Made by a program: the position numbers and the translations under genes. Source: Lachnospiraceae bacterium (lineage in GTDB: Bacteria; Bacillota; Clostridia; Lachnospirales; Lachnospiraceae). From it: a DNA stretch of 45,506 nucleotides. Shown piece after piece: positions 10,141 to 34,583 of this stretch. Below the pieces are notes generated by a model. The model worked only from the letters and a program-made list of their open reading frames with translations. It was not told the DNA's origin and did not search any database. Each line of letters starts with the position of its first letter. The stretch's first letter is position 1. The DNA lies in contig JAFPAQ010000094.1 of NCBI GenBank assembly GCA_017424235.1, positions 1 to 45,506 on the forward strand, given 5' to 3'.

Positions 10141-11550
10141 CTAATATGCATTCTTATTAACAAATCCTGTAAAAAAAGTCATAAGAATTATTTTTATATC
10201 AAATGTCAATGTCCAATTTTCTATATAATACAAATCATATTCTATTCTCTTTTTAATAGATGTATCCCCTCTGTAACCATTCACCTGAGCCCATCCGGTT
10301 ATTCCGGGTCTTACCTGATGTTTGATCATATATCTTGGAATTTCTTCCTTAAACTGTTCAACAAAACGTGGTCTTTCAGGTCTTGGCCCTATTAAACTCA
10401 TATCTCCCTTTAAAACATTGAACAATTGAGGAAGTTCATCTATACTTGTACTTCTTAATATTCTTCCAATCTTTGTAACACGAGGGTCATTTTTCTTTGT
10501 CCATCCTTTTTTCTCCTCTTCAACAGGCTGAACCTCCATACTCCTGAACTTATACATCTTAAATGTCTTATTATGAAGACCTACTCTTTCCTGTTTAAAA
10601 ATAAGTGGACCTTTACTCGTTGTTTTAACACCTATTGCAGCAATAATCATTATAGGAGAAAATATAATTATCGCAAGGGTCGCACCTATTATATCAACCA
10701 TACGTTTTATAAGCATATTTGCAGTATTGGTCAACGGCACCCTTCTGATATTTATTACTGCTAATCCTCCAAGATCCTCTAAATAGGGTTTACTTGGAAT
10801 CACACTGTTATAATCAGGTATAAACTTAGTGTGAACACCCGACTTTTCACATGTATTGACAATTTCTTCAAGTCGGTAATAATCTTCAAGTGCCAAGGTT
10901 ATACCTATCTCGTCAAGCTTATTTTCAGGAAGTATTATATCTAAGTTATCAATATCACCTATAACCTTAACTCCCTTATATACAGCGCCTCTTGGAACTT
11001 TGTCATCAAGTATGCCGCATACCTCATATCCCCACTCAGGATTAGACTTCAATCTTGTTATATATTCTTCTGCCGCTCTGGAATAACCAACAAGCAGAAT
11101 ATGCTTGATATTATATCCTTTTTTACGAAAGAATCTAAGTACAATTCTTACCGTCTTGCGCATAGCCGATTCAAGAACAATATTTACACCATAAAAAAGC
11201 ACTATCATTCCTCGTGAATAATCATCCACGTGAATCGCGAACATCACCACCATTACAGCTATAAGCCCAATAGTATTAGCCCGTATAATGTTAAATATCT
11301 CATAAACTGTCCTTGCAATACGTTTGGATGAGTACATGTCAACCATGTTATACAAAATAAGATATCCCGGTACTACAGCGACCAGCGCCATAAAGTAAAT
11401 CTCCTGTGCAAGCACTCCTGTATCAGGATGAACTTCTTTTATATAACCACTAAGCCATACAAACCATGATAATAAATATGAAATTATTATCACTATTGCA
11501 TCTAAAATCACAAGCAGTCGGTTAAAATATTTCTGATTATCTCTTATCAA
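10141..11550 (-). CDS. Polyprenyl-phosphate sugar-1-phosphate transferase (WcaJ-like)
   Basis: A 469-residue protein with four N-terminal membrane helices (about 10-125), a CoA-binding-like soluble domain with HILLVGYSRAAEEYI (about 150-250), a further helix (about 280-305) and the C-terminal bacterial sugar transferase domain. In it, FKMYKFRSM, DELPQLFNVLKGDMSLIGPRP and RPGITGWAQVNG are diagnostic. It transfers a hexose-1-phosphate, usually glucose or galactose, from a UDP-sugar to undecaprenyl phosphate and so starts a lipid-linked chain. The start codon is TTG (11548-11550), chosen because AAGGTGA lies about six bases upstream and the next ATG is over 50 codons inside. A strong promoter precedes it. 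It is the second enzyme of this type in the window. Confidence 0.93.
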   Translation of the reverse strand: MIRDNQKYFNRLLVILDAIVIIISYLLSWFVWLSGYIKEVHPDTGVLAQEIYFMALVAVVPGYLILYNMVDMYSSKRIARTVYEIFNIIRANTIGLIAVMVVMFAIHVDDYSRGMIVLFYGVNIVLESAMRKTVRIVLRFFRKKGYNIKHILLVGYSRAAEEYITRLKSNPEWGYEVCGILDDKVPRGAVYKGVKVIGDIDNLDIILPENKLDEIGITLALEDYYRLEEIVNTCEKSGVHTKFIPDYNSVIPSKPYLEDLGGLAVINIRRVPLTNTANMLIKRMVDIIGATLAIIIFSPIMIIAAIGVKTTSKGPLIFKQERVGLHNKTFKMYKFRSMEVQPVEEEKKGWTKKNDPRVTKIGRILRSTSIDELPQLFNVLKGDMSLIGPRPERPRFVEQFKEEIPRYMIKHQVRPGITGWAQVNGYRGDTSIKKRIEYDLYYIENWTLTFDIKIILMTFFTGFVNKNAY

Positions 11551-16728: not shown

Positions 16729-18729
16729 TTAATTAATTTTAGACTTTAATGTGTAATCGCTATGATCAAGTGAGAAATTCGGATTATAATAGGGATCTCC
16801 CTTTTCAATAACCTGTTTCCATCTTTGTCTGAACTTCTCAGATTCTTCCTCATATCTCTTAGCCTTTGCTTCATCGGCAACATCTATTCCTCTTGATGCT
16901 GATTCGAAATGATAAAGCTCTGCAAATGGAGTAAATACATTAAGATAGCCTTTTTCTCTTATTCTCAGGCAAAAATCCACATCGTTTAAGGCAATCTTAA
17001 ATTCTTCATCAAGTCCCCCAAGCTCATCAAATATCTTTTTCTTTACCATAAGGCAGGCACCTGTAACCGCTGATACATTCTGTGCATAACACAGTTTTCC
17101 CATGTATCCGAGATTATCATAATTGATCTTATAATGTGTATGACCCGCTGTTCTGTGTGCTCCAAGCCCAATAACAACACCTGCATGCTGTATTGTCTTA
17201 TCCCCATAATAAAGCTTCGCACCAACAGCTCCAACATCCTCACGCTGTGCATACATAAGCATCGCCTCAAGCCAGTTCATTGTGATAACCTGTGTGTCAT
17301 TATTAAGCAAAAGAAGATATTCACCGGTTGCATACTTTGCACCAAAATTATTTATTTTGGAATAATTAAATTCGCCCTCATATCTTACAATTTTTATCCT
17401 TGAATCATCTTTAAGAGTCTTATAGTAGTCTGAGGTTGCTTTCTCTGTACTATTGTTCTCAATAATTATGATTTCATAATTATCATAGGTTGAACGCTGC
17501 TTTATCGACTCAATACATCTTCTGAGATCATCTGAATGATCCTTGTTCGGAATAAGAATTGATATCTTGTCCTCCCTTAATATTTCATATTTTATCTCAA
17601 AAATAGTCTCAAAAGCGCGGGTACTTTTTATTTCAAAATTTTTAAATCCATTCTTGGTAAGATGATCCGCAACTGCACCCTTTGCTGCTGCTATTGCATA
17701 GGGTTTTGCACTTATGTCACTTGCAACACTTCCCTTATGCGAACGCCAATAGTACATAAGCTTTGGTATATGCACAACATTTTTAGCATTGGAGGTGAGT
17801 CTTAATATCATATCGTGATCCTGACTTCCGTCAAAGCCACTTCTGAACAATTCCGTACCTTCTAATAATTCTCTTGAAAATACGCTAAAATGACAAATGT
17901 AGTTATTAGCCCTAAGATTATCAATAGAAAAATCAGGTTTAAAATGCAAGGTCAGCATATTATCAATGCTGTCTCCCTTAAAGGTAGTCTCATCACAATA
18001 TATATAATCTGCATTCTGTTCATTTATTGCCTTCACATATTCGTAAAGCACTGATGGGTGCAAAATATCATCCTGATCAAAAAGACCTATATATTCGCCT
18101 GTTGCAAGCTTGTAGCATTCATTTGTATTTCCTGAAATACCGCCATTTTTTTCAAGCTTTTTATAAACTATACGTCCATTTGCCTTCGCAGCATATTCAC
18201 GGCATATTTCTTCTATATAGGCATGCTCCTTGTCAGACCCGTCAGCAAGACAAAGCTCCCAGTTCTCATAAGTCTGGTTCATTACTGACTCTATCATATC
18301 TATCTGATATTGTCTTTCATTATTCCACAAAGGTACAAGAATACTTATCTTGACCATTTTGTCAAATTTCTCGGCACGTTGTCTTGCAGCCTCCTGTGCA
18401 TCCGGAAAGCTTGCAGTACCATGAAGCTTCTTTGCCTCTGCTTCGATTGTTTTTTGCTTTATTTTTCTTGCAATCCCCTTAGGACCACCAAGATTTTTGA
18501 TGCGTCTGAAATTTCTAAGTCCCCAGTGCATAGTCACTCTTAAAGGCTTTGAGGCTTTCCACATGGGATTGGTCTTAATCCTGTCTAACTGAAACTGGAG
18601 ATTGTCTGCTTCATTTTTAGCATCTGCCAGTCTTCCTGCAAGAGAGGCCGATTTTGCCTTTTCCTGTTCATAGGCTTTTTTATAAAATTCTATATCATGT
18701 TCTTCCTTATTGTATTTTTCATTATCCAT
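16729..18729 (-). CDS. Tandem two-domain family 2 glycosyltransferase
   Basis: A 666-residue protein. An N-terminal coiled-coil-like region (about 5-60) and a basic segment precede two complete GT2 domains. Domain 1 (about 127-340) has KISILVPLWNNERQ, ADGSDKE, GLFDQDDILHPS and GFDGSQDHDMILR. Domain 2 (about 385-630) has KISILIPNKDHSDDL, IIENNSTEK, LLNNDTQVI, the AQNVSAVTGACLMV stretch and LNDVDFCLRI. Such double GT2 proteins make alternating linkages in rhamnan-type and other wall polysaccharides. AAAGGA nine bases before the ATG supports the start. It lies 29 bases after the 704-residue GT2 and is the last gene of the export operon before the long gap to pgm. Confidence 0.92.
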   Translation of the reverse strand: MDNEKYNKEEHDIEFYKKAYEQEKAKSASLAGRLADAKNEADNLQFQLDRIKTNPMWKASKPLRVTMHWGLRNFRRIKNLGGPKGIARKIKQKTIEAEAKKLHGTASFPDAQEAARQRAEKFDKMVKISILVPLWNNERQYQIDMIESVMNQTYENWELCLADGSDKEHAYIEEICREYAAKANGRIVYKKLEKNGGISGNTNECYKLATGEYIGLFDQDDILHPSVLYEYVKAINEQNADYIYCDETTFKGDSIDNMLTLHFKPDFSIDNLRANNYICHFSVFSRELLEGTELFRSGFDGSQDHDMILRLTSNAKNVVHIPKLMYYWRSHKGSVASDISAKPYAIAAAKGAVADHLTKNGFKNFEIKSTRAFETIFEIKYEILREDKISILIPNKDHSDDLRRCIESIKQRSTYDNYEIIIIENNSTEKATSDYYKTLKDDSRIKIVRYEGEFNYSKINNFGAKYATGEYLLLLNNDTQVITMNWLEAMLMYAQREDVGAVGAKLYYGDKTIQHAGVVIGLGAHRTAGHTHYKINYDNLGYMGKLCYAQNVSAVTGACLMVKKKIFDELGGLDEEFKIALNDVDFCLRIREKGYLNVFTPFAELYHFESASRGIDVADEAKAKRYEEESEKFRQRWKQVIEKGDPYYNPNFSLDHSDYTLKSKIN

Positions 18730-18758: not shown

Positions 18759-20873
18759 TTAGTCTATTTTAACTTTAATGTCCTTTACAAATGAAATATA
18801 TTCTTTACCATTTATTTTTGACCTAATTCCAAGTGCATATAAACCTTTTTCAAATTGATTTTTGTCAATAATCATATGAATACCTGCAAGTCTGGTATTG
18901 GTTGTGCTGCTGTCCTCTTTAAACAGGTTATCAACATCCTCTCTTAAGCAGGGATACATATTGGCTGAATATAATGTCATGATATCAGATTTTTCATCTG
19001 TACTATATATAAGCATATCACGTGAAATCTGTGCATTGTCATGCTTTTGAAGCACGTACCAGCCATCAATTATAATATCATCCATTTCATAAGATACTTT
19101 GTCTACATTGAACATTAAAAGATTAACACCCGTAAATCTATTCTCAAGCTTATCAAATATATTTAAACTTCCTTTTTCATTCTGCTTCTTATATTTAAGA
19201 TATGCTTTTTCTATTTTCTCTTTGGCATGACTGTTCTCAATAGTAACTGTAGCTTTTTTATCATATGCAAATTCATAATTTACATTATAATCTATATCTT
19301 TCTTATTCTGAACAAGATTTATATTGTAAAAAGGATCTTTTTTATATAGCTTTGGATGCTTTTTATAGAGAATTTCTTTCTCATTGTTAAGTCGTTTTTC
19401 CTTTTCTGTGGAAACATCACTGCCTCGACTTAGGGATTCATGGTGTACAAGCACTGCCAAATTAACCTGCACATTGTAAAACCCTTTTTCATACAATTTA
19501 AAACACAAGTCAACATCATTATATGCCACTGCAAGTTTTTCGTCAAAGCCTCCTACGCTATAATACTTTTCCTTATTCACAAGAAGACAGGCCCCTGTAA
19601 CTGCAAGCATATTATAATTGACCATATTATGTCCATGATAAAGATTACCCTTGTCAACCCTCCCACCAAGCTTATGGGCTGATCCTATGGCCATGTTGGT
19701 TATTCCTGCATGCTGTATTTTATATTCTGATTCTTCTGCTTTTGGATAATACAGCTTGGCACCTACTGCACCTGTATGCCTTTTTGCAGCATAATAGAGC
19801 ATATATTTCAACCATTTGGAGTCAATTATTTCAATATCATCATTTAAAAACAAAAGATATTCTCCTAAAGAAGCCTCTGCCCCAATATTACACATCTTTG
19901 AAAAATTAAAAGGCATTTTATCATACAAATATTCTATTCTGCTTAAATTACTTTTGCTGCCAATATATCTTATCTGTTCAACAAAACTTTCTATGCACAT
20001 TTTTTCTTCTTTACTGCTTCCATTATCCACAATAACTATCTCATAATGTGCATAAGAGGTAAGTTCAATTAACGAGCTTATACATTTTTTTAGAATAACA
20101 CTATTATCTTTGCTTGGTATTATTATTGAAATAAGCGGTTGTTCACAGTCTATCTCAAAATTCTTTTTCTCATATCCCGGAAGCTCCCTGCTTCTCAAAA
20201 TATCTTCATTTGTATATAAAACCTTATCTACATGATAGATCTCTTCACATATTTTTACAGCTTGTCTTATAAATTGATATAAAGACAGCTTGCCATAAAT
20301 CGAATATGACTTTGCAAAAATATCTCCGCGCACTGCAATCAGACTTCCAAAATAGAAAAAGGACTCTAATGTATCAGGCGAAAAATCCGGTTTAAACCAG
20401 GGTTCTCCCCTGTAATAGCCTTTGCAGCCAAAACTGTATTTTTGTAATTCTTTTAATATTTCAATATCAAAATCGGACTCTTCTATTCCATACAATTCTT
20501 CCAAAGTCCCAAGATAATCTTCATCAGCATATAAGATTCCAATTTCAGAGTTTTTGTCAAAGCAATCGCATATCTCATATTTTGCATACTCATCAACAAA
20601 GCCCTTGTCTCTATAAAAAATCATTATACCGTCTTTTACTTCATTAATATCATTAATTCCATACTTTTCCCGGACTTTATCAAATATGTCTTCTACTTCA
20701 TCCATACACGAAGAAAAGGGAAGCATGTATACATGCGTCCCTGAAAATTGCTTCTTACCTAATCTATCCGACAAATCCTTCTGCTGAGCCTTGAGCAATT
20801 GAAGATATGGGGTATATTGATTAAAGAGTTCCCTGTTATAGTTGTTCATATAAATGCTGTTTTTTTCTTTCAT
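18759..20873 (-). CDS. Multidomain family 2 glycosyltransferase with C-terminal beta domain
   Basis: A 704-residue protein. The N-terminal part (about 80-230) is a degenerate GT2-like module that keeps YADEDY and WFKPDFSPDTL but not a full nucleotide-binding start. A complete GT2 domain follows (about 245-490): ISIIIPSKDNSVILKK, IVDNGSSKE, LFLNDDIEI, AVTGACLLVNK, AYNDVDLCFK. The last 120 residues form a beta-rich domain (DGWYVLQ, DNAQIS, LREDV, LAGIH, KGLYALGI) that is shared with the next gene upstream. Its ATG directly follows the TAA of that gene, with GAGGG overlapping the stop, so translation is coupled. It is probably a paralogue of the 702-residue protein by duplication. The sugar specificity is unknown. 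Confidence 0.9.
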   Translation of the reverse strand: MKEKNSIYMNNYNRELFNQYTPYLQLLKAQQKDLSDRLGKKQFSGTHVYMLPFSSCMDEVEDIFDKVREKYGINDINEVKDGIMIFYRDKGFVDEYAKYEICDCFDKNSEIGILYADEDYLGTLEELYGIEESDFDIEILKELQKYSFGCKGYYRGEPWFKPDFSPDTLESFFYFGSLIAVRGDIFAKSYSIYGKLSLYQFIRQAVKICEEIYHVDKVLYTNEDILRSRELPGYEKKNFEIDCEQPLISIIIPSKDNSVILKKCISSLIELTSYAHYEIVIVDNGSSKEEKMCIESFVEQIRYIGSKSNLSRIEYLYDKMPFNFSKMCNIGAEASLGEYLLFLNDDIEIIDSKWLKYMLYYAAKRHTGAVGAKLYYPKAEESEYKIQHAGITNMAIGSAHKLGGRVDKGNLYHGHNMVNYNMLAVTGACLLVNKEKYYSVGGFDEKLAVAYNDVDLCFKLYEKGFYNVQVNLAVLVHHESLSRGSDVSTEKEKRLNNEKEILYKKHPKLYKKDPFYNINLVQNKKDIDYNVNYEFAYDKKATVTIENSHAKEKIEKAYLKYKKQNEKGSLNIFDKLENRFTGVNLLMFNVDKVSYEMDDIIIDGWYVLQKHDNAQISRDMLIYSTDEKSDIMTLYSANMYPCLREDVDNLFKEDSSTTNTRLAGIHMIIDKNQFEKGLYALGIRSKINGKEYISFVKDIKVKID

Positions 20874-22982
20874 TTATCCCTCAATAACAATCTTTTTGTT
20901 CGTGTCTCTATATAAACGCTGTCTTGAACATCCATCTTTTGCAGTCAGCCATAGCTCATAAGTGTCAGCAGGAATCGCCCCTTCACATATCCAGCAGCAA
21001 AATCCTGATAACTCTACATTTTTTTCACCTGAAATAATCTTTGCCACATCCTTGCGATAACGTCTCTGTACCGGCAATTCCCAAACCATTCCTTTACTAT
21101 TCACAAATAAAAGCTTTACTTCATATCTGGCATTATCAGCTCCCGGTACATAAGACCAGCCTTTTACAAGATAGTAGTCTTTTAATTCCTTTTCTTTGCC
21201 ACCTGATAAAGTCACAGGAACCTTCATAAATTTCTCTTTGCCACATTCTTCAATGGAAAGCATTATTGCATTATTCATTTTGCTTTTATCAGGAAGCTTT
21301 CTTCCCCGCTCAAGCTTGTCATTGTGATCAAGAGAATTGACTATTTCATAACCCTCAAGCCATCTGCAAAAATACTGAGGTTCTCCACTGTTAAGCAAGG
21401 TACCTATAAACGGATCATGTCTGTACAAATGCTCATGTCTTGAATACAGCTTATCTTTTTCTGCAAGGAGTCTTTTGAGCTTATTTTCATCCTGCATATC
21501 ATCACCACGGCTTAAGGATTCATGATGATACAAAACAACATCATTTCTCTGAACATTGAACAGTCCTATCTCATGTATTCTAAAACACAAGTCAACATCA
21601 TTATATGCTACCGCAAGTCCTTCATAAAGTCCCCCCAGGGCTTTATATACTTCTCTTCGCATAAGCAGACACGCCGCTGTGACTCCTATCAGATCATAAA
21701 TAAATCTGTTTCTGCCATAATAATAGGATATATTATCTTCCATCTGCTTAAGCTTATGTCCTGGTCCATATATTGTGTTACTTATTCCTGCGTGCTGTAT
21801 CAAAGTAGTTTGAGGATATAAAAGCTTGGCACCTACTGCACCTGTATGATTTAAACCGGCCTGACCTACCATTCTTGTAAGCCACAAGTCCTCTATTGCC
21901 TCCATATCATCATTCAAAAGCAGTATGTATTCACCTCTGGATTTTTCAAATCCGATATTGCACATTTTTGAAAAATTAAATTCCATTGGCTCATAAACAT
22001 AATTAAAAGCATAGTCCTTTTTAAATTCTTTTATTATCTGCTGATTTTTTTCGCCGCTGCCATTATCAACAACAATAATCTCAAAATTAGTATAGGAAGA
22101 ATGTTCATATACAGACTTTATGCACTGTTTCAATACTTCCGGGTTGTCCTTTGATGGAATGATTATGCTCACAAGCTTATTCTCGGAAACATCATATAAA
22201 GGATATGACACACCTGTCACTTTATCTTCAATAAACTCTGCATGAACTCCTATTCTCTCCATTGCAGAAGCTTTTATGTCATCATAGTATTTTCCAACAC
22301 CAATAAAATCTGTCTTGTGCATAATGGTGTTTTCGATTTCTTCTTTGCTATTTCCACCCTGATACAAGTGAAACAGTACTTTATCGATATGTCCGACTGT
22401 ATTAACCTGCTGTGTCGCCTTTAATACAAAATCATATATATTTCTCTTATAATCTGTATCCTTTAGCCATTCTATACCAATAAATTTTTCTTTTCGTATA
22501 ACAAAAATATTGCCAAAATACAAAAAAGAAAGTAATGTATCCGGTGACCAAACCGGTTTTGTCCAAGGAAAAATCCTGCGGGCAATTTCATTATCTTTAT
22601 CCCCCTGACTATCCTTTTGAGATTTAGCAGCACTTCTCACTATATCTGTAGTCCATATATCCTCATCTGCATAAGCAATATCAATATCATTATTATTATT
22701 AAAAAAATCTTCAATTTCAAAATAGGCTCTGTTTGAAAGCCTGCCATTTTTTGAAATGAAAATTAAGTATTCATATTCATTATTATCAATTTTAAAATCC
22801 TGTCCACAATCTTCAATGCAGACTACCTCTGCTGATAAACTGCTGTCACAGGCTCTCTTACTCTCTGTCTCATTTATCCAAATGAGATAAGGATCTGTCT
22901 GAAGCCTTATCTCATCTGAATATTTCTGAATGCACTTATTATACAATTTATTTTGAATGGATGATTTAATTTTTCTTATCAT
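20874..22982 (-). CDS. Multidomain family 2 glycosyltransferase, paralogue of the next gene
   Basis: A 702-residue protein with the same plan as the 704-residue protein. A degenerate N-terminal GT2-like module (IAYADEDIW, KPVWSPDTLLSF) precedes a complete GT2 domain (about 270-515: VSIIIPSKDNPEVLKQC, VVDNGSGEK, LLLNDDMEA, GVTAACLLMRR, AYNDVDLCFRI). A C-terminal beta-rich domain (about 590-700) carries GWSYVPGADNA, YRKDV, LSGF and DTYELWL. The two proteins probably transfer to the same polymer with different linkage or acceptor. The ATG lies 17 bases inside the end of the methyltransferase-kinase gene, so the two are tightly coupled. The Shine-Dalgarno is weak. Confidence 0.9.
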   Translation of the reverse strand: MIRKIKSSIQNKLYNKCIQKYSDEIRLQTDPYLIWINETESKRACDSSLSAEVVCIEDCGQDFKIDNNEYEYLIFISKNGRLSNRAYFEIEDFFNNNNDIDIAYADEDIWTTDIVRSAAKSQKDSQGDKDNEIARRIFPWTKPVWSPDTLLSFLYFGNIFVIRKEKFIGIEWLKDTDYKRNIYDFVLKATQQVNTVGHIDKVLFHLYQGGNSKEEIENTIMHKTDFIGVGKYYDDIKASAMERIGVHAEFIEDKVTGVSYPLYDVSENKLVSIIIPSKDNPEVLKQCIKSVYEHSSYTNFEIIVVDNGSGEKNQQIIKEFKKDYAFNYVYEPMEFNFSKMCNIGFEKSRGEYILLLNDDMEAIEDLWLTRMVGQAGLNHTGAVGAKLLYPQTTLIQHAGISNTIYGPGHKLKQMEDNISYYYGRNRFIYDLIGVTAACLLMRREVYKALGGLYEGLAVAYNDVDLCFRIHEIGLFNVQRNDVVLYHHESLSRGDDMQDENKLKRLLAEKDKLYSRHEHLYRHDPFIGTLLNSGEPQYFCRWLEGYEIVNSLDHNDKLERGRKLPDKSKMNNAIMLSIEECGKEKFMKVPVTLSGGKEKELKDYYLVKGWSYVPGADNARYEVKLLFVNSKGMVWELPVQRRYRKDVAKIISGEKNVELSGFCCWICEGAIPADTYELWLTAKDGCSRQRLYRDTNKKIVIEG

Positions 22983-25110
22983 AAAATAATGACTTTCCTT
23001 TATTCTTTAACTTATCTATAAAGCTAAGCTCAATCTCTTCCATATTTTTTGAATTGTCCACTATCTGCTTTGCAAGCATTTGTGGCAACTCACACACCTC
23101 AATATCAGCTGAAAGTCTCTTTCCACCTGCCACCGGTATTACAATGTTAGGGTCAACAGTATCAAATACCATATAACCGCTTTCCTGTAATGAACCATTT
23201 ATTTCCATTACATCATTTGTATATAATCTGTCACCAACACTCAGCCTGTTTATTCCAACACTGCAACAAAATGCGCAAGGGTCAATTCGTACCCGCACAA
23301 CATCCTCAGGAACATCAAACTCAAAGCGTGCAAATTTGTATTCATCAAAGCAATCTCTGATTCTAAATGAATCTTTCTCAGAAAAACCGTTTCCACGGTC
23401 ATAAAATATCTGTACTGCAAATTTTTCATGGGTAAATGTACAGCTTGCTTCTATTGATTTAAGCTCATAAGCCTTATTACCAATTATCTCACGCATACCA
23501 TTTACAGATACCTTATCGCCGGTTATCATCTTCTGAAATTCTCTTTCATCTTCTATGGCATCAGCAATTTCTTTGTCCGTATAATGTAAAATGTCTTTAA
23601 AGAGCAGATTTTCCTGTTCTTTTCTTATTTCACTGCCAAGAATGTAATTGTAGAAAGCTCTAAATGCAATATCCTTTGAGGATATCTTTTTCTCAACTGT
23701 CCATTCATAATCGATTACATGCCACTTATCGCGCTCAACGATAATATTAGGGAAAATGAAATCCAAATTGCTAACGTCAGAGGATTCCTCACCAAACGCA
23801 AGCCACTTAAGATACTCATCTATAAGTACCTTAAAACCCTTTATATCATTCTTTGCAAGACAGGCATCTAAAAGTGCCTCCAATGTTACTCCTTTACAAA
23901 ATTCAAATGCAAGTCCCTTTATGCCATTTCTTGAAACCAAAACACATTTATTTATATCAATTTTAGTATTTTCATAACGTTTTGACAAAAGCTCATAGGC
24001 TCTCTTGGTCTTTTCAATATGAGGCTGCGACTTATCTGAGCAAGGCATTTTTTCTATATGCAATGCACCTGTTTTTTCCTCTACCATTGTAGTTGTTATC
24101 TTCCAGGCTTCATCCCTGTCATTTGAAAACCTGGCGTAAGCAATATTAGGTGCTGAGCCTATAACTAACAGATAAGAGTTTGAGAAAAGCGGAAACTCTT
24201 TTTCTTCAATAATCTGATCAAATACCTGCTTTTCATCAAACAATAACAGTCTGTCCCTGTCAAAATTTCTGAGGTTATTTGATAACTCTCCCTTTTTAGG
24301 CAGATACTTATCAGAATATATTGTAGTCATAAATTTATAATCAGGATATGGATAATAGAAAGCATACTCACTTATACCTGCTTTAGACAATATTTTCTCA
24401 AAGCCATGCCTTGTAAATGTTCTTGCCACACCACCTTCATGATATCCCTCAAGACCTGAGAAATATGTTCCAAGATGATCTTCTCTGCATCCTGCCCAAT
24501 ATTTAAGACCAAATTTGTTTTCTATGGCAATAACAAGTCTTCCATTGTCTTTTCTATGTCTGTTACAGATTTTCATAAAATCTTCGTATGGATGTGAACC
24601 ACCTATATATGCCTGACCATACTCAAATACTCCAATAAGCAGTACATAGTCATAGTCCTCTGAAAGCTGTGGCTCTATATCCTTAAAATTACCTACCATA
24701 ATGGTAATATTATCGCATGATTTATTCCTGTATGCATTTACAAGACTGCGCTTTTTAGACAAATCTATACAAGTCACACTGCCGGCCTTAGCAGCAACTG
24801 CACCTGTTATAGCTCCACACCCGGAGCCAATCTCGAGAACCTTATCTGTCTTTTTGAAGGGTATCCAGTCAATTATATTTGATCTGTATGATGACAAATG
24901 ATAAAATACAGGCCAGCTTTTTCTTTCCTCTATAATTTTGGGAAAAGCTTCTTTCGAATTGTTCTTTACAATATCAAGAATATCATCTTCAATATCTCCG
25001 TCGGAATAATAATCTTCTCCCGGATAATAAGTAAGATCAAGCACCACTTCTCCTACTTTTTCAATTTTTTGTTCCTGATTGTTATCAACCGCGTCCTTAA
25101 AATCTGCCAT
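22966..25110 (-). CDS. SAM methyltransferase-kinase fusion, WbdD-like chain-terminator candidate
   Basis: A 714-residue protein. Residues about 60-270 form a class I methyltransferase with motif I VLEIGSGCGA (91-100) and the acidic CIDLS loop. Residues about 325-500 resemble an aminoglycoside-phosphotransferase/choline-kinase fold: an N-lobe with WKITTTMVEE, a GLAFEFCKG hinge, then D450-F-I-F-P-N455 spaced as in the catalytic HxDxxxxN motif, and D467 in HVIDYEW as the DFG equivalent. The usual His before the catalytic Asp is absent. A beta-rich C-terminal domain follows (about 540-690). The order methyltransferase then kinase, next to wzm/wzt, is that of WbdD, which caps O9a O-antigen with methyl phosphate. 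The capping role here is inferred. GAGG before the ATG supports the start. It overlaps the downstream GT2 by 17 bases. Confidence 0.8.
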   Translation of the reverse strand: MADFKDAVDNNQEQKIEKVGEVVLDLTYYPGEDYYSDGDIEDDILDIVKNNSKEAFPKIIEERKSWPVFYHLSSYRSNIIDWIPFKKTDKVLEIGSGCGAITGAVAAKAGSVTCIDLSKKRSLVNAYRNKSCDNITIMVGNFKDIEPQLSEDYDYVLLIGVFEYGQAYIGGSHPYEDFMKICNRHRKDNGRLVIAIENKFGLKYWAGCREDHLGTYFSGLEGYHEGGVARTFTRHGFEKILSKAGISEYAFYYPYPDYKFMTTIYSDKYLPKKGELSNNLRNFDRDRLLLFDEKQVFDQIIEEKEFPLFSNSYLLVIGSAPNIAYARFSNDRDEAWKITTTMVEEKTGALHIEKMPCSDKSQPHIEKTKRAYELLSKRYENTKIDINKCVLVSRNGIKGLAFEFCKGVTLEALLDACLAKNDIKGFKVLIDEYLKWLAFGEESSDVSNLDFIFPNIIVERDKWHVIDYEWTVEKKISSKDIAFRAFYNYILGSEIRKEQENLLFKDILHYTDKEIADAIEDEREFQKMITGDKVSVNGMREIIGNKAYELKSIEASCTFTHEKFAVQIFYDRGNGFSEKDSFRIRDCFDEYKFARFEFDVPEDVVRVRIDPCAFCCSVGINRLSVGDRLYTNDVMEINGSLQESGYMVFDTVDPNIVIPVAGGKRLSADIEVCELPQMLAKQIVDNSKNMEEIELSFIDKLKNKGKSLFYDKKN

Positions 25111-25135
25111 AATGCCTCACATTCTTTGTACCAAT

Positions 25136-26449
25136 TTATATCACTGTAATTTTTGAGTCCATATCATAATAACCAACGGTATTCTTATCAGAAATAACAG
25201 TAACATCAAGAGCATCGTATAATCTATGATATACCTCAAAATCATCACCATTATATCCTGTTGCACCGAATGAAAGCAGATATTCTCCACCCTGAAGAGA
25301 CATCTTTTGTGTGAAACTGATTTCTTTTATTTCTCCAGCCTTAACAGGCTCAAGAAAAGCTTTTTCAAACATGGTATTAGTACCTGTTATCTCTGTTCCC
25401 TTTGGATTTTTAAATGAAAATGCAAAAATAGGTGCCGGAAGATCACTGTAAAATCTTACCTTCATCTTTATTGTAAATTCCATACCTTTGATAATGGAAT
25501 TAGTACGAATACCTCTGTCATCTATCACATAGTATTCTATGATTTCTGCATCCTTTGTTCCATATTCAAGTACTTTTGATGAATCCTCTTCCTTCTGTTT
25601 CTTTTGCATTGCCTCTTTGGTCTCAACTGCCTCTTTGATCTGTTCATCATTTACGAGACTGTTTTCAGACTTCGACTCCGGAAGCTCATACTGCCCTACA
25701 AGTACTCGCTTAAAGTCGTCAATCATTGCCTTAGGGGAGCCTTCTCCAAGCTTAACCCCCTGGTTTAAAAGTATAACCCTGTCACAGTACTTTGCAATAC
25801 TGCTAAGGTCATGGCTGACAAATATTATTGTCTTGCCCATCTTTTTAAATTCATCAAATTTGTGGTAACACTTTGCCTGAAAAAATACATCACCTACTGA
25901 CAAAGCCTCATCAACTATAAGAATTTCCGGATCTATATTTATTGCAACTGAAAATGCCAGTCTTACAAACATACCGCTTGAATATGTCTTAACCGGCTGA
26001 TTCACATAGTCACCAATATCAGCAAAATCAAGAATATCCTGCATTCTTGCATCTATCTCTTCTTCAGTAAATCCATTCATTGTACCATTAAGATAAATGT
26101 TCTCAATACCTGAATATTCCATATTAAAGCCTGCACCCAGCTCCAAAAGTGCTGATATTCTTCCATTTACATCAGTTCTGCCACTTGTTGGATTAAGTAC
26201 ACCTGTAATAATCTTAAGAATTGTTGATTTTCCGGAACCATTTGTTCCTATTATACCAACACATTCTCCCTGTTTGACATCAAAGCTTACATCAGATAAT
26301 GCAAAATGCTCTCTGTATTTTTTTTCTCTTGTAAGCCCCAGTGCCTCTTTAAGTCTGTCTGTGGGCTTATCATATAGCTTGTATACCTTGGATACATTCT
26401 CCACAAGTATAGCTATATTTTTATTATCATTGTTTGTTTTGTTTTCCAT
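25136..26449 (-). CDS. wzt: Polysaccharide ABC exporter ATP-binding protein with cargo domain (Wzt/TagH type)
   Basis: A 437-residue protein. The nucleotide-binding domain (about 12-245) has Walker A GTNGSGKST (68-76), signature YSSGM (156-160), Walker B ILIVDE (176-181) and the VSHDLSS switch. A Glu/Lys-rich linker (about 255-290) leads to a C-terminal beta-sandwich of about 145 residues (IEYYVIDDRGIRTN, FAFSFKNPKGTEI, GEYLLSFGATGYNG, YHRLYDALDV). That domain matches the carbohydrate-binding domain of Wzt proteins that recognise a modified chain end. TagH and streptococcal rhamnan exporters usually have shorter or different ends. It pairs with the permease gene 27 bases upstream and is followed by the methyltransferase-kinase, fitting recognition of a capped chain. 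Confidence 0.94.
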   Translation of the reverse strand: MENKTNNDNKNIAILVENVSKVYKLYDKPTDRLKEALGLTREKKYREHFALSDVSFDVKQGECVGIIGTNGSGKSTILKIITGVLNPTSGRTDVNGRISALLELGAGFNMEYSGIENIYLNGTMNGFTEEEIDARMQDILDFADIGDYVNQPVKTYSSGMFVRLAFSVAINIDPEILIVDEALSVGDVFFQAKCYHKFDEFKKMGKTIIFVSHDLSSIAKYCDRVILLNQGVKLGEGSPKAMIDDFKRVLVGQYELPESKSENSLVNDEQIKEAVETKEAMQKKQKEEDSSKVLEYGTKDAEIIEYYVIDDRGIRTNSIIKGMEFTIKMKVRFYSDLPAPIFAFSFKNPKGTEITGTNTMFEKAFLEPVKAGEIKEISFTQKMSLQGGEYLLSFGATGYNGDDFEVYHRLYDALDVTVISDKNTVGYYDMDSKITVI

Positions 26450-26476
26450 AAAATGAACACAACCTTCCTCTATTCT

Positions 26477-27316
26477 TTACAGAACATCAGCAAAATGAAC
26501 CTTAAGTCGTCTGAATATTGTTGAACCTATTAAAAACAGCACAATTGTTACTATCCAAAAATATGCTGTTGAGGCCATATCCTGCCAAAACCATTTACCG
26601 GAAAACATTGCATCTCTGTATCCATTAACTATATAAAATACCGGATTAAGCTTTAATACAAACTGCAATTTTTCTGACACCAGTGTTATATTCCACAATA
26701 TTGGAGTAGCCCACATTCCAACCTGTAAAAAGATTCCTATTATCTGTGTGAGATCTCTGAAAAATATAACCAGAGAACAGGTAGTGTAACTCAATGCCAA
26801 CACAAACATAAACATACAAAAACTGTAATATAAAAGCTGAATAAGATAAATACTTGGTGTAAATCCATAGCAAAAATATACCACAAGCATAAATGTCACA
26901 AAAAACATATGAATAAACGAAGCAGCAATAAGCTTTACGATAGGAATGATACTTATCTTAAAAACAACTTTTTTAACAAGATAACTGTATTCCAGAAGAG
27001 AGGTTGTTCCATTATTTATGGTTTCTGTAAAATAAAACCATGGCACAAGTCCTGCTGTAAGCCATAATACATAAGGTGCTGTCACTCCGGCTGCAACCGT
27101 TTCAAGCTTGTCTTTACCCATTACATGTCCAAAAACAAACCAATAAAGCAACACAGTAACCACAGGCTGTGTAAATGCCCACACCCTTCCCATGTAAGAG
27201 CCCGCATATCTGTTTTTAAAATCATTTTTTGCCAGTTTCCATATAAGCTTTCTTGAACTCCACAGCTCTGCCGGCAGAGATATTATTCTACTATGCTTCT
27301 TTGATTTATCCTTCAT
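26477..27316 (-). CDS. wzm: Polysaccharide ABC exporter permease (Wzm/TagG type)
   Basis: A 279-residue ABC-2 family permease with about six transmembrane helices and the usual opening LIWKLAKNDFKNRYAGSYMGRVWAF, which forms the amphipathic cytoplasmic gate helix. Other family features are the long second loop with WLTAGLVPWFYF and the NPVFYIVNGYRD segment. With the Wzt-like subunit it would move undecaprenyl-diphosphate-linked polysaccharide across the membrane. AAAGGA ten bases before the ATG supports the start. It lies between rfbC and wzt with short gaps. Confidence 0.95.
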   Translation of the reverse strand: MKDKSKKHSRIISLPAELWSSRKLIWKLAKNDFKNRYAGSYMGRVWAFTQPVVTVLLYWFVFGHVMGKDKLETVAAGVTAPYVLWLTAGLVPWFYFTETINNGTTSLLEYSYLVKKVVFKISIIPIVKLIAASFIHMFFVTFMLVVYFCYGFTPSIYLIQLLYYSFCMFMFVLALSYTTCSLVIFFRDLTQIIGIFLQVGMWATPILWNITLVSEKLQFVLKLNPVFYIVNGYRDAMFSGKWFWQDMASTAYFWIVTIVLFLIGSTIFRRLKVHFADVL

Positions 27317-27334: not shown

Positions 27335-27901
27335 TTATCTTTCTAATTCCTTTATTGAACCCCACTTTGTATCTTTTTCAGATAAAGTAAGCTCCATTCC
27401 TTCCGGTATAGGCCACTTAACACCTATCTCGGGATCGCTCCATAAAAGTCCGCCTTCATCATCAGGATGATAGAAATCTGTGCATTTATAGCAAAATTCT
27501 GCATAATCTGATAAAACTAAAAAGCCATGTGCAAAATTCTTTGGAATAAAGAACTGTTTTTTATTTTCTTCTGATAAAAGAACTCCAAACCACTTTCCGT
27601 ATGTTTCAGAACCTTTTCTCATATCTACCGCTACATCAAAAACTTCTCCCTTGATTACTCTTACAAGCTTATCCTGTGGGAAATTCTTCTGAAAATGAAG
27701 ACCTCTTAATACACCTTTTTTTGAGGCAGACTGATTGTCCTGTACAAATACATGATCGATACCAGCTTCCTTAAAATCATTGTAATTATAGGTTTCCATG
27801 AAATATCCTCTGTTATCCCCAAAAACCTGTGGAGTGATAACTTTAAGACCTTCTATAACAATTCCATCTGTTTCACAATTTTCAACTGTAATTTTTCCCA
27901 T
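27335..27901 (-). CDS. rfbC: dTDP-4-dehydrorhamnose 3,5-epimerase
   Basis: A 188-residue cupin protein with the RmlC hallmarks: FGDNRGYFMETYN near residue 24, VQDNQS, GVLRGLHFQK with the catalytic His, the KGEVFDVAVDMR strand, IPKNFAHGFLVLSD and CTDFYHPDDEGG. It converts dTDP-4-dehydro-6-deoxyglucose to the L-rhamno form. I choose the ATG at 27901 (protein starting MGKIT, as family members do). A TTG at 27913 with AAGGA five bases upstream is an alternative that would add four residues. It sits between the second GH25 gene and wzm. Confidence 0.95.
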   Translation of the reverse strand: MGKITVENCETDGIVIEGLKVITPQVFGDNRGYFMETYNYNDFKEAGIDHVFVQDNQSASKKGVLRGLHFQKNFPQDKLVRVIKGEVFDVAVDMRKGSETYGKWFGVLLSEENKKQFFIPKNFAHGFLVLSDYAEFCYKCTDFYHPDDEGGLLWSDPEIGVKWPIPEGMELTLSEKDTKWGSIKELER

Positions 27902-27921
27902 TCTAATAACCAAACCTTTCC

Positions 27922-29211
27922 TTATCTTCCAATGTAACTTATATTAAGATCTACTCTTCCTTCTATCCCGGATACAGCACCACTTGAAGTATACTGCCAG
28001 ATATCATATTTATCTTCATATTCAGGAGTCTGTCGGTACTCAGCAAGCCAAATTGTAAAATCATAAAAATCTTCTCTGTTCAGTTTGTTAAGATACCAGT
28101 TTCTGCTTGCATATACACCTGCTTCAAGTCCTGCATTCTGTATAGTCTGGCAGAAGGCATTTATCACTGCTGTTCTTGTTGCCGGATCAAGATTATCTGC
28201 TCTTCCATTTCCACCGGCTCCTTCAGTATCAATAAACACCGGATAATCAAGTTCTCTTTCTCCTAAAAGAGTGATGACAGCACTTGCTTCTTCAACTGCC
28301 TCAACAAGATTTGTTGCCTGTGTGAAGAAGTAAACACCTACTTTTACGCCTGCTCGCTGTGCATTGTCAATATTCTGCTTATAATATGGATCTTCGACAA
28401 GACAGCCTGTAGATGAGCCTCTGTAGCCACATCTTATGATAGCGAAATCAACGCCTTCGGCCTTAACAATGTCCCAGTCAATCTCTCCGTTCCATTTAGA
28501 TACATCAATACCCATCTCAACAACGTTTTCCTGTTCATCAACCTCCAGTAAAGATGTATACTGTGTATCATCCTCATCTTCCGAATCAATCTGTTCTGCT
28601 TCGGTATCTTCCTTCAAAATATCTATTTCATTCTCAGAGTGTACAAAATATTCAATATCCTCAATTGTTGTATATGAAACAATTGATTTGACATTCACAT
28701 TGACAGGCTCTGAAGGAACCTTTAACCCATCCATATCCCGAAGTGATAATTTGTAATCTCCCGGCTTCACATTCTGAATCTGAATGACTCCGTCCATGTC
28801 TTCATCAATATGCAGACCTTCACCTTCTACATCTATCATAAAGTCATGCCCTGTAACAATATTTCCTTTGTCATCAACTATTCTGACTCTGATATCCTTT
28901 TCAACAGAGCTTGCAAGTAATGAAACAGCAGTCACAGGCTGCCCATTCTCATCATATTCCTGCTCGGCTGAATAGTTTGAATTTGTCTTAGAGCTGGTAT
29001 CCTTGTCAAAGAAATCGTCATCACGCAAAAATGCAGAAAGGTCAGCTCCAATTATACGACCATCTTCTTCTGTGTAACTTTTACTTACTTCTATCTCATC
29101 AGAAATGTTATCAGATAATTCCATGCAGCCAAGCACAACTGCTGCCCCCATAAATATCAGAACCAGAATCAAGAATAAAAGTAGTACTATCCTCTTTTTA
29201 TTAGAGCCCAT
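27922..29211 (-). CDS. Membrane-anchored GH25 lysozyme-like protein
   Basis: About 429 residues from the ATG at 29211, which has GAGG seven bases upstream; a TTG two codons earlier is less likely. An N-terminal transmembrane anchor (about 7-30) is followed by a beta-rich domain (about 90-190: [32 protein letters not shown]), an acidic linker and a GH25 domain (about 228-429). Catalytic features are [19 protein letters not shown] and [10 protein letters not shown]25 enzymes cleave between MurNAc and GlcNAc in peptidoglycan. The beta domain and the catalytic domain both match the 1088-residue protein at 31.3 kb. It overlaps the end of rfbA by 11 bases, so it is locked into the dTDP-rhamnose/export operon. 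It may open the wall for polymer insertion. Confidence 0.92.
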
Positions 29212-30070
29212 TAGCAACCTCTACAAGATACTTTCCATATTCTGTCTTCATCAATGGCTCAGCAAGCTTCAAAAGCTGTTCTTTGTCTATAAACCCTTTC
29301 TTATAGGCGATTTCTTCTATACATGAAATATAAAGTCCCTGTCTTTTCTGGAAGGCACATACAAAGTTTGCAGCATCAATAAGAGAATCATGATTGCCTG
29401 TATCAAGCCATGCAAATCCTCTCCCCATTGTTTCTACAGTAAGAGTTCCTCTGTTAAGATACTCATTATTTATACTTGTTATTTCTATTTCACCTCTTGC
29501 AGAAGGCTTAACATTTTTTGCAATCTCAACAACATCATTATCATAGAAATAGAGTCCGGGTACAGCATAATTGCTCTTTGGATTAGCCGGCTTTTCTTCG
29601 ATTGAAATAGCCTTTCCATTTTCATCAAACTCAACAACACCATACTCTCTTGGATCTCTTACATAATATCCAAATATTGTAGCTCCTTTTTCCTTCTGTG
29701 CCACTTTGGTGAGAAGCTTTGAAAAGCTCTGTCCGTAAAATATATTATCGCCAAGCACTAAAGCTACTGAATCGTTTCCAATAAAATCTGCACCTATAAT
29801 AAATGCATCCGCAAGACCTCTTGGCTGTTCCTGAATTGCATATTCCATATGAAGTCCAAGCTGCTTGCCTGTACCGAATAACTCCTTAAACACTGGTAAA
29901 TCTCTTGGAGTTGAAATGATAAGAATATCCTTTATCCCTGCAAGCATAAGAGTAGATAATGGATAATAAATCATCGGTTTATCATATACCGGCATAATCT
30001 GCTTTGAAATTGCTTTTGTTAACGGATACAAACGGGTTCCTGAACCACCTGCTAAAATAATACCTTTCAT
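29201..30070 (-). CDS. rfbA: Glucose-1-phosphate thymidylyltransferase
   Basis: A 289-residue protein of standard RmlA length. The nucleotide-binding motif is [17 protein letters not shown], with the metal-binding Asp in LVLGDNIF, the EEKP motif, and the [10 protein letters not shown] segment near the C-terminus. It joins dTTP and glucose-1-phosphate to give dTDP-glucose, the first step to dTDP-rhamnose. AAAGG nine bases before the ATG supports the start. It lies downstream of rfbB across a strong hairpin and has no room for a separate promoter, so it is probably expressed by read-through from rfbB. Confidence 0.97.
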
Positions 30071-30093: not shown

Positions 30094-30136
30094 AAAAATC
30101 TGGTAGGAGGTAGTATCTACCTCCTACCAGATTTTT
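30094..30136. terminator. Strong hairpin between rfbB and rfbA (terminator or attenuator)
   Basis: A perfect inverted repeat with 20-base arms (30094-30113 and 30117-30136) and a 3-base loop, overlapping the rfbB stop codon. The stem core CTGGTAGGAGGTAG is GC-rich and the outer arms are A5/T5, so on the minus strand it ends in TTTTTAAT. It is the strongest hairpin in the window yet lies inside a gene pair of one pathway, so partial termination is likely. Confidence 0.85.
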
Positions 30137-31214
30137 ATTTATACATTTCAGAATAATATTTCTGATAATCACCACTGGTTGCATTTTTCATCCACTGTTC
30201 ATTTTCAAAATACCACTGAATTGTCTTTCTGATACCTTCCTTGAACATTGTCTCCGGGTACCAGCCTATTTCAGCCTTGATTTTATCCGGAGCAATTGCA
30301 TATCTTCTGTCATGTCCCTTTCTGTCTTCAACATAAGTGATAAGCTTCTCACTTACATTAGCTTTTCTGGGATCTCCTTCCGGAAGCATATCCTGAAGTG
30401 TTTCAAGAATAATATGAAGAATCTCTATATTCTGTTTTTCATTGTGACCACCTATATTGTAAGTTTCAAACAGCTTTCCCTGTTCCTGAACCATATCAAT
30501 TGCTTTTGCGTGATCCTCAACATATAACCAGTCTCTTACATTCTTTCCATCGCCATAAACCGGAAGATTTTTTCCCTGTAATGCATTGTTAATCATTAAA
30601 GGAATGAACTTTTCAGGGAACTGATATGGTCCATAGTTATTTGAGCAGTTCGTAATATTGGCAGGGAACTTATAAGTATCCATGTACGCTTTTACCAACA
30701 TATCTGAGCTTGCCTTACTTGCTGAATATGGACTATGTGGATCATATGGAGTTGTCTCATAAAAGAATGCATTATCATCATCCGGAAGAGAACCGTAAAC
30801 CTCATCAGTTGATACATGAAGGAATTTCTTGCCTTCCTTAAAGCTTCCATCCGGCAATTCCCATGCCGCCTTTGCACAGTTGAGCATTACAGCTGTACCA
30901 AGTACATTAGTCTGAACAAAAACCTCAGGATTTCTGATACTTCTGTCTACATGACTCTCTGCTGCAAAATGAACAACTCTGTCAATATCATTTTCTGCAA
31001 AAATCTTTGATATCGCTTCCTTGTCTGTTATATCAGCCTTGATAAATGTATAATTATCCCTGTTTTCTACATCCTTCAAATTCTCAAGATTACCTGCATA
31101 AGTAAGAACATCAACATTTATGATCCTGATTTCATTATCATATTTTTTGAACATGTAATGAATATAGTTAGATCCTATAAATCCAGCTCCTCCTGTAACC
31201 AAATATGTTCTCAT
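30135..31214 (-). CDS. rfbB: dTDP-glucose 4,6-dehydratase
   Basis: A 359-residue short-chain dehydrogenase/reductase of RmlB type. The NAD-binding motif is TGGAGFIGSNYI at the start, HFAAESHVDRSI follows, then the catalytic STDEVYGSL and YSASKASSD (Tyr and Lys), NNYGPYQFPEKFIP and GDGKNVRDWLYVEDHA. It forms dTDP-4-dehydro-6-deoxyglucose. GGAGGG about ten bases before the ATG supports the start. It has its own promoter just after the 1088-residue GH25 gene and is followed by a very strong hairpin before rfbA. The fourth enzyme, RfbD, is not in the window. Confidence 0.97.
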   Translation of the reverse strand: MRTYLVTGGAGFIGSNYIHYMFKKYDNEIRIINVDVLTYAGNLENLKDVENRDNYTFIKADITDKEAISKIFAENDIDRVVHFAAESHVDRSIRNPEVFVQTNVLGTAVMLNCAKAAWELPDGSFKEGKKFLHVSTDEVYGSLPDDDNAFFYETTPYDPHSPYSASKASSDMLVKAYMDTYKFPANITNCSNNYGPYQFPEKFIPLMINNALQGKNLPVYGDGKNVRDWLYVEDHAKAIDMVQEQGKLFETYNIGGHNEKQNIEILHIILETLQDMLPEGDPRKANVSEKLITYVEDRKGHDRRYAIAPDKIKAEIGWYPETMFKEGIRKTIQWYFENEQWMKNATSGDYQKYYSEMYK

Positions 31215-34300: not shown

Positions 34301-34583
34301 GCTCATAAACTGTTGTATCCGCAGCATCCGGATCGGCTTCTTCATCTTCTTCATAAAAAATTTCTTTAAAAGCTTCCGGTTGTGTATTTTTTTCAACATA
34401 TTCATTATCAGCTTCTGAATCTTCTATACCCAAGTCTTCACTTATTTCATTATCTTCTGATATATACTCATCATCAAAGTATTCGTCAGACATTTCATTA
34501 TTTATTTTTTTAGTACTGTTTTGTGGTCTCACACGACGTATAACCTTCTTTTTCTTTTTATGCTTCACTATTCCTTTTTCCAT
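31317..34583 (-). CDS. Large membrane-anchored GH25 protein with Big_2 domains
   Basis: A 1088-residue protein. A basic start (KHKKKKKVIRRVRP) and a long cytoplasmic tail very rich in Asp, Glu and Tyr (about 30-175) precede one transmembrane helix (about 200-226). Outside follow a SpaA-like beta domain (about 290-405), two or three Ig-like Big_2 repeats (about 455-805, with SWSSSDESIATVDENGVVTG and TWESSDNKVATVDENGVVTG), a choline-binding-type wall repeat (GWQTINGKTYYYDKNG) and a C-terminal GH25 domain (about 893-1088: FGIDVSRHNG, YPIFIDTES, KVDLNLSYMG). It probably cuts peptidoglycan while held at the membrane. It has its own promoter and ends one base before the rfbB -35. The beta and GH25 parts are paralogous to the smaller GH25 protein at 27.9 kb. 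Confidence 0.92.
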   Translation of the reverse strand: MEKGIVKHKKKKKVIRRVRPQNSTKKINNEMSDEYFDDEYISEDNEISEDLGIEDSEADNEYVEKNTQPEAFKEIFYEEDEEADPDAADTTVYEQNGEYYYEDGDYAEDTGSYYEEDEDYYYDEQPEYDASEEYFDEYEDEYYYDDEYYENEDFFETDCDDYTDEETTVTKAAKKSGKRNTGFDIDRIAEVIKDTVSNMTAFDFVLGATGIVLVVGLIVALNMYTSTKRIQDSIEALAPLGTELSAIGIVGEDGLNSMADAALMGIWNQETQETQTVIETESAPVSESCKVSVDFVSIEKDLKIRFTDANTGELIKGTVFEVELTNKKSGKKIVLKDDDADGVIYATNVTAGKFDAIIKSTDKYKFPQTAQVVTVKDKVEYVVINIQDEIKSESQVNVAKEDTQQKEAAKEEEKLTDTVEWVESTKTLIEGSEGYLITDKTTIPDPSLTTKAYSRMLFDGLNVSLDSSEISMTEGGSAQLKGTEFHDSKDGDVEYVYTTSWKSSDEGVVTVDNGKLKAKSEGKATITYTVNKKTVTKTQDTETVEISVEEYDALSDEEKEKCTIITDDDGQITGYKYNKVNGTHIDETNEEASATCEVTVKKAGASSGTLEISRSSETCSIGGTVTVKPEKLVYTNGDGSTDTITDNFPKISWSSSDESIATVDENGVVTGVKKGTVDIVAKIKGIIGDNGEELKIKATTQIKVTSDTKLSLKLDKTSDVKVEVGKTVTITATVSNYSSDAGVTWESSDNKVATVDENGVVTGVSVGSVKIIAKTNEKDAEGNAVKAECVITVTANASYDENTKLKDKNGNQIYLKNDDGTYKEAVYADYFTAQEFYLKTEGKYAYTGWQTINGKTYYYDKNGVAVTGTQIIKGVTYNFDSEGAIATSVNGHKFGIDVSRHNGNIDWNAVKASGVDYVIIRCGYRGSATGALIPDQNFYTNIKGATAAGLKVGVYVFSQAINEVEAVKEASLAVSMVKGYNLTYPIFIDTESSGGRADGINKATRTAVVNAFCQTVASAGYRPGIYASKTWFEDKLNMSSVGNYKIWLAQYCAAPTYKGKYDMWQYSSKGTISGISGKVDLNLSYMGY

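Follow-up and report, generated by a model that had tools for sequence, protein, structure and literature searches.

WbdD of E. coli O9a is a methyltransferase fused to a kinase. Its methyl-phosphate cap stops the growth of the polymannose chain, and export by a Wzt that has a cargo domain depends on this cap; the enzyme carries a trimerising C-terminal coiled coil (PMC3482155). ORF6(O7) of Klebsiella pneumoniae O7 places a methyl-phosphate onto O-3 of the terminal rhamnose, and its D441A variant is dead (PMC11231755). The published account describes the ORF6(O7) kinase as different from that of WbdD, and its authors knew of no carbohydrate-binding module (CBM) in other terminators (PMC11231755). 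The orthologues aligned there come from alpha- and gammaproteobacteria and cyanobacteria, and an archaeal cluster is also named (PMC11231755). In Gram-positives, capping for export has been proposed for the S-layer glycan of Geobacillus stearothermophilus, a rhamnan to which WsaE adds a 2-O-methyl cap that is predicted to be read by Wzt; wzm-wzt lie next to the gene for WsaE (PMC2943079). In the S-layer glycan of Clostridium difficile Ox247, which has an ABC exporter, the capped terminal rhamnose has been assigned as 2,3-cyclophospho-rhamnose, and the authors propose a role in termination (PMC6254364); we saw no capping enzyme assigned to it. How length is set in ABC-exported surface glycans of Gram-positive gut bacteria is little known. 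Among the papers listed in our searches of the open-licence literature, none concerns a methyltransferase-kinase terminator in Lachnospiraceae.

We analyzed a stretch of 45,506 nucleotides from a Lachnospiraceae bacterium (the window), for which a sequence-only reading had suggested that a WbdD-like enzyme caps a wall polymer that is then read by Wzt. Read along the minus strand, the gene cluster begins with an rmlB-type dehydratase, an rmlA-type transferase, a GH25 lysozyme-like gene, rmlC, wzm, wzt, and the gene for a 714-aa protein. Three large GT2 proteins, a phosphomutase, and a GtrA-like protein follow, and then two further GT2 proteins, a sugar-phosphate transferase, and a LytR-CpsA-Psr (LCP) protein. 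The main genes are as follows.

30135..31214, minus strand: rmlB, dTDP-glucose 4,6-dehydratase (TIGR01181 above cut-off)
29201..30070, minus strand: nucleotidyltransferase, named rmlA from its neighbors (PF00483, 2.9e-78)
27335..27913, minus strand: rmlC-type epimerase of dTDP-rhamnose synthesis (PF00908, 2e-73)
26477..27316, minus strand: Wzm permease (ABC2_membrane, 2.4e-16)
25136..26449, minus strand: Wzt ATPase subunit, 437 aa (ABC ATPase and Wzt_C found)
25160..25570, minus strand: Wzt C-terminal cargo-binding domain (Wzt_C), residues 294-430 (PF14524, 2.5e-41)
22966..25110, minus strand: methyltransferase-kinase, 714 aa, probable chain terminator (domain scans, profiles, model)
20874..22982, minus strand: GT_A, GT2 glycosyltransferase, next gene after the terminator (match in 69/80 related loci)
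18759..20873, minus strand: GT_B, GT2 glycosyltransferase (match in 17/80)
16729..18729, minus strand: GT_C, two-domain GT2 glycosyltransferase (match in 73/80)
10141..11550, minus strand: initiating sugar-phosphate transferase, Bac_transf (family scan)
8556..10100, minus strand: LCP protein, candidate wall ligase (PF03816, 3.2e-32)

The GT_A gene overlaps the end of the 714-aa gene by 17 bases. The 714-aa protein is encoded once at full length in the source genome; a further match is weak and covers residues 85-206 only. As a hint to the polymer sugar, the cluster codes for dTDP-rhamnose steps, whereas WbdD systems cap polymannose. The methyltransferase, the kinase, and the Wzt with a cargo domain that had been read from the letters were all recovered, the PF14524 match falling on the Wzt tail. 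The 714-aa protein divides as follows.

24157..25110, minus strand: N-terminal SAM methyltransferase domain, residues 1-318
23521..24156, minus strand: kinase domain, residues about 319-530, with Lys354, Asp450, Asn455, and Asp467 (model, APH-type matches, conservation)
23083..23478, minus strand: C-terminal beta-sandwich, residues about 545-676, with an RxDP motif (mostly strands in the model)
22984..23082, minus strand: C-terminal helix, residues 677-709 (model)

The proposed kinase fold of the middle region held up when that domain was modeled separately, giving APH-type structure matches. Its active-site residues are kept in 69-70 of 71 divergent sequences. E93, G95, and G97 of the methyltransferase and K354, D450, N455, and D467 of the kinase are invariant in a 59-row alignment; the window protein retains the signatures of both active sites. 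Other searches saw little of the kinase. A PDB search with the single sequence did not find it, and the whole-protein profile gave weak protein-kinase matches within the region (best 2.2e-4), the more diverse kinase profile A4 reaching only 0.048. Pfam run on 50 members of A4 returned nothing convincing (best 0.0046, DUF4135); the kinase family is invisible to Pfam. The VIA search with the full-length model had only methyltransferases among the matches listed. WbdD is absent among the 50 matches listed for the kinase model, which is no argument against kinship with WbdD.

The nearest characterized relative appears to be ORF6(O7), judged from its published description and residues. As described (PMC11231755), both proteins begin with a methyltransferase and continue with a kinase, about 220 residues long and missed by annotation. 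A beta-sandwich follows, which the published account calls an Ig-like CBM in ORF6(O7) and which the model shows in the window protein, where it is possibly carbohydrate-binding. Both systems also have an ABC exporter and, as predicted for the window, a rhamnose-containing polymer. Unlike ORF6(O7) as published, the window protein has no long coiled coil and, by Pfam scan, no GT2 modules; its host is Gram-positive and its polymer perhaps a wall polymer. The model shows the helix at 677-709 as the sole element after the beta-sandwich, and a home-made heptad count found no coiled coil there. Heptad stretches do follow the kinase in some relatives fused to a glycosyltransferase (L142, L156, L158, L160, L181). 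The comparison with WbdD stands for the fusion of methyltransferase and kinase in one protein. We regard WbdD as an analogue. It has a coiled coil, which the window protein lacks, and it caps polymannose (PMC3482155); the likely closest relative has a kinase reported as distinct from WbdD's (PMC11231755). WsaE resembles the window system in its Gram-positive host, in acting on a rhamnan as we predict for the window, in the neighboring wzm-wzt, and in the predicted reading by Wzt; it differs, as described, in adding methyl only and in having its methyltransferase fused to GT2 modules with no kinase (PMC2943079). Ox247 shares the Gram-positive host, the ABC exporter, and the terminal-rhamnose phosphate that we propose for the window, and is likened here by description and not by genes; unlike our reading of the window, its cap is a cyclic phosphate and its glycan sits on S-layer protein (PMC6254364).

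A scan of named genomes gave at least 590 confirmed relatives, of which the best 80, picked by likeness to the 714-aa protein, were kept. Each encodes the three domains in one frame. Upstream, 79 of these loci encode a Wzt that has both ATPase and cargo domain, in two frames in L040 and about 1.5 kb away in L083; the contig begins at the remaining locus, L084. The order is also kept for wzm (76 of the 80), rmlC (74), GT_C (73), and rmlA (73). An apparent Wzt-terminator fusion in L067 was rejected as its stop codons hold masked letters (N), giving one frame.

Co-occurrence of the two domains was checked in 299 Lachnospiraceae genomes selected independently of likeness to the 714-aa protein. We called a kinase at E up to 1e-12 and a strong Wzt_C at E up to 1e-34. 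Counts rest on profile A4; an earlier, wider profile, KIN2, was dropped for its methyltransferase overlap and false kinase matches. Wzt_C is encoded in 180 genomes and the kinase in 156. With a kinase profile trained on kinase loci found beside Wzt, 147 of the 148 genomes with a strong Wzt_C encode the kinase, against 9 of the 151 others, namely 2 of the 32 whose Wzt_C is weaker and 7 of the 119 that lack it (Fisher p 4.5e-73, genomes being counted as independent despite kinship). The sole exception is G170, a genome of 79% completeness in which the contig breaks off inside the adjacent methyltransferase. Of 130 places in the survey, 106 follow Wzt_C on its own strand at a distance of no more than 700 bp, and 119 are found within 6 kb.

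Homologues without a cargo-domain Wzt, which the sequence-only reading had held would speak against capping, do occur and make up the 9 of 156 kinase genomes lacking a strong Wzt_C. For three of them there is an explanation, either a split Wzt frame (G205, weaker Wzt_C) or a contig end at the gene (G277, G279, no Wzt_C). The second genome with a weaker Wzt_C, G242, has its kinase by a short Wzt. In the group without Wzt_C, inspection covered G277, G279, G076, with a short Wzt, and G188, with none in view; G010, G090, and G186 were outside it. Methyltransferase-kinase genes stand beside a short Wzt without cargo domain in L246, L248, L265, and L268, arrangements that may represent capping without reading or another role. 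Six relatives have no Wzt in view (L247, L249, L250, L251, L264, L269); for L249, L250, and L251 a strong Wzt_C is found at another place in the genome.

We also examined 75 loci chosen from the survey as unusual, with methyltransferase-only matches, long frames, or a strong Wzt_C without a strong match. A frame was called fused if it had at least 840 aa and its best match was to a window glycosyltransferase. Methyltransferase and kinase are separate genes in 21 of the 75. In 30 the kinase is inside a glycosyltransferase frame with the methyltransferase apart, and in 14 all three share one frame, so that kinase and glycosyltransferase are fused in at least 44. Three loci have methyltransferase and kinase only, three a kinase without a methyltransferase match, and four no kinase within the stretch. 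One of those without a methyltransferase match, L174, is cut by the stretch, and the methyltransferase shows in L279. For the four kinase-less stretches, the kinase is upstream in L141 (as seen in L253) and on another contig in L173 and L185, while L171 (G170) is at a contig edge; the kinase is thus found in 74 of the 75 unusual-locus genomes. Methyltransferase-only terminators in kinase-type loci were considered and rejected, since in every case but G170 a kinase is encoded in a neighboring gene or at another site of the genome. L181 and L183 encode a large frame with a kinase in which no methyltransferase was recognized, possibly for phosphate-only caps.

The kinase follows one type of cargo domain. 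In 181 long-Wzt loci scored with a cargo-domain profile trained near the window, which aids the split in scores, all 147 with a downstream kinase reach at least 158 bits, and 27 of the 34 without one score 0-37 bits. The other seven score 170 bits or more (L067, L141, L253, L171, L173, L174, L185); L067 is the masking artefact, and L141 and L253 are one locus with the kinase upstream. Against the window, the eight nearest kinase-less loci are 58-62% identical in the nucleotide-binding domain (NBD) and only 21-27% in the cargo domain, compared with 53-55% and 35-41% for kinase loci from other families (L270, L273-L275). By these comparisons kinase-less Wzt_C loci carry a different cargo domain. 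The two exporter classes, with and without an adjacent kinase, recall by analogy the pairing of O9a with O8 in E. coli. In kinase-less loci, nine genes situated at wzt or close to it were scanned. Five code for methyltransferases of other families, one of them fused to two GT2 domains; the other four are two permeases, a Mur ligase, and a GT4. A Methyltransf_23 protein directly follows wzt in L236 (3865-5244), L238 (7011-10493), and L242 (3921-5468), the one in L238 being fused to two GT2 domains in a WsaE-like manner. From their sequences, a methyl-only class of terminators is possible for these three.

Trees took a sample of kinase loci and left out the unclear loci L067, L141, L171, L173, L174, L185, L241, L243, L245, and L253; two short-Wzt rows were removed after the first tree, and L232 was removed for the cargo-domain test. 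A single kinase clade on the NBD was not rejected (AU p 0.741). A domain swap read from tree discordance was set aside, with one quick tree suggesting it, an earlier tree without the Gram-negative rows not showing it, and no support from the AU test. The mirror-tree test for a link of kinase and cargo domain was not specific; the partial distance correlation is 0.398 for kinase and cargo domain and 0.475 for kinase and NBD, no stronger for the cargo domain. Repeated swaps are unproven by the trees, and the coupling may reflect one ancestral event.

Beyond the family, the whole-protein profile at 1e-20 matched 25 of 391 genomes of the window's class, 14 of them from the same family, and the kinase profile at 1e-6 matched 7 of 299 genomes of its phylum, four of them from the same family. 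In nine of 13 out-of-family loci inspected (L263, L266, L267, L270-L275) a cargo-domain Wzt stands by the genes; of the other four, two have a short Wzt (L265, L268) and two have no Wzt in view (L264, L269). A tblastn search of plasmids found two records, Citrobacter braakii pF217-3 and Pseudomonas asturiensis pCC1524, with a methyltransferase match of 34.9% over residues 35-267 (E 1e-31). The first encodes rmlBACD genes, wzm, wzt, a 649-aa relative, and glycosyltransferases; the second has wzm, wzt, and a 1457-aa fusion annotated as a glycosyltransferase. The methyltransferase profile matched the two at 3.9e-52 and 6.2e-50. The kinase profile matched the Pseudomonas protein at 1.8e-11 and the Citrobacter relative only at E 0.022. 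The family profile of the beta-sandwich matched the same region of the Pseudomonas protein weakly (E 5.6e-5; best of 50 shuffles 3.1) and did not match the Citrobacter relative (E 3.6). Y28, Y66, G91, G93, E112, and Y158 of the P. asturiensis protein are the residues and numbers published for ORF6(O7) and align to Y35, Y70, G95, G97, D116, and Y164 of the window protein. D443 aligns to window D450 and is two numbers off the published catalytic D441. By this residue numbering, and not by the ORF6(O7) sequence, the Gram-negative relatives look ORF6(O7)-like. The histidine usually found before the catalytic Asp is missing in the window protein, as had been observed, and we add that both Gram-negative relatives lack it too (Phe, Tyr). 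Their cargo domains share 16% and 24% identity with that of the window, which is no higher than in kinase-less loci, and score 49.5 and 46.5 bits with the cargo profile against at most 37 for kinase-less loci.

We consider it probable that the window protein is a Gram-positive chain terminator of the ORF6(O7) type, capping a rhamnan for reading by Wzt. Inside the cell, the cluster glycosyltransferases would assemble a chain rich in rhamnose on a lipid carrier. The sugar at its non-reducing end, most likely rhamnose, would then be phosphorylated by the kinase domain, after which the methyltransferase domain would methylate the phosphate. Such a capped end could no longer be extended and would be bound by the Wzt C-terminal domain, so that Wzm-Wzt would export finished chains only, with the LCP protein as the candidate for transfer to the wall. 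The cap-and-read logic first suggested from the letters is supported by the 147 of 148 coupling, the adjacency of the genes, and the glycosyltransferase fusions. A quite improbable alternative is a side-chain decorating enzyme that adds phosphate and methyl along the polymer or on a precursor, with no role in export. Rhamnans bearing glycerol phosphate have been described in Gram-positives (the R. gnavus glucorhamnan, S. uberis) and some relatives lack a cargo-domain Wzt nearby, but a decorating enzyme fits poorly with coupling to one cargo-domain type, with the position directly after wzt, and with the proven action of the likely relative ORF6(O7) at the chain end. The Gram-negative cargo domains, being off the pattern, slightly lower our estimate for a terminator and raise that for decoration.

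Two further alternatives are compatible with much of the terminator reading. The cap could be phosphate alone, a cyclic phosphate, or carry its methyl elsewhere, as the Ox247 cap (PMC6254364) and the kinase frames of L181 and L183 would allow; with both signatures intact in the window protein, we find this somewhat unlikely. The acceptor could instead be an S-layer or other surface protein, which would leave the capping mechanism unchanged. The two Gram-positive precedents found are both S-layer glycans, as described, but the LCP gene lies in the same gene run and no oligosaccharyltransferase-type family was found by Pfam among 30 of the larger window ORFs before position 43683, and we regard a protein acceptor as unlikely.

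The sequence-only reading knew of no description of length control by capping in a Gram-positive wall glycan. Capping for export in a Gram-positive was already proposed for the two S-layer glycans (PMC2943079, PMC6254364), so what is new is the enzyme type in Gram-positives, the family-wide coupling, the split and fused variants, and a window lineage with no long coiled-coil ruler. With a probable terminator in 156 of 299 sampled genomes and a link to the exporter at the level of domains, the length question becomes testable, and the study points to a kinase family unseen by Pfam and to two exporter classes. Tentatively, the main rhamnose-rich wall glycan across the family might be made to measure by phosphate-methyl capping read by the Wzt cargo domain, with terminator and polymerase modules freely split and fused; the window lineage would set length without a coiled-coil ruler, perhaps with the beta-sandwich holding the chain.

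Plasmid pF217-3 is typed conjugative, and its rhamnan-type cluster (L281:1207-16046) contains an IS630 transposase and has a group II intron protein as a neighbor; the cluster is possibly a mobile surface-glycan cassette. GH25 lysozyme-type genes lie in and beside the rhamnan cluster of the window (27922-29217 and 31317-34583), with a GH25 match inside the stretch in 74 of the 80 related loci, and perhaps open the wall for polymer attachment. A DUF6077 protein is encoded near the cluster (36347-37405), and another copy is the second gene after a relative's wzt (L173:4570-5586). The window has two Bac_transf sugar-phosphate transferase genes (10141-11550 and 40890-42317), which suggests two neighboring glycan pathways or one that is divided.
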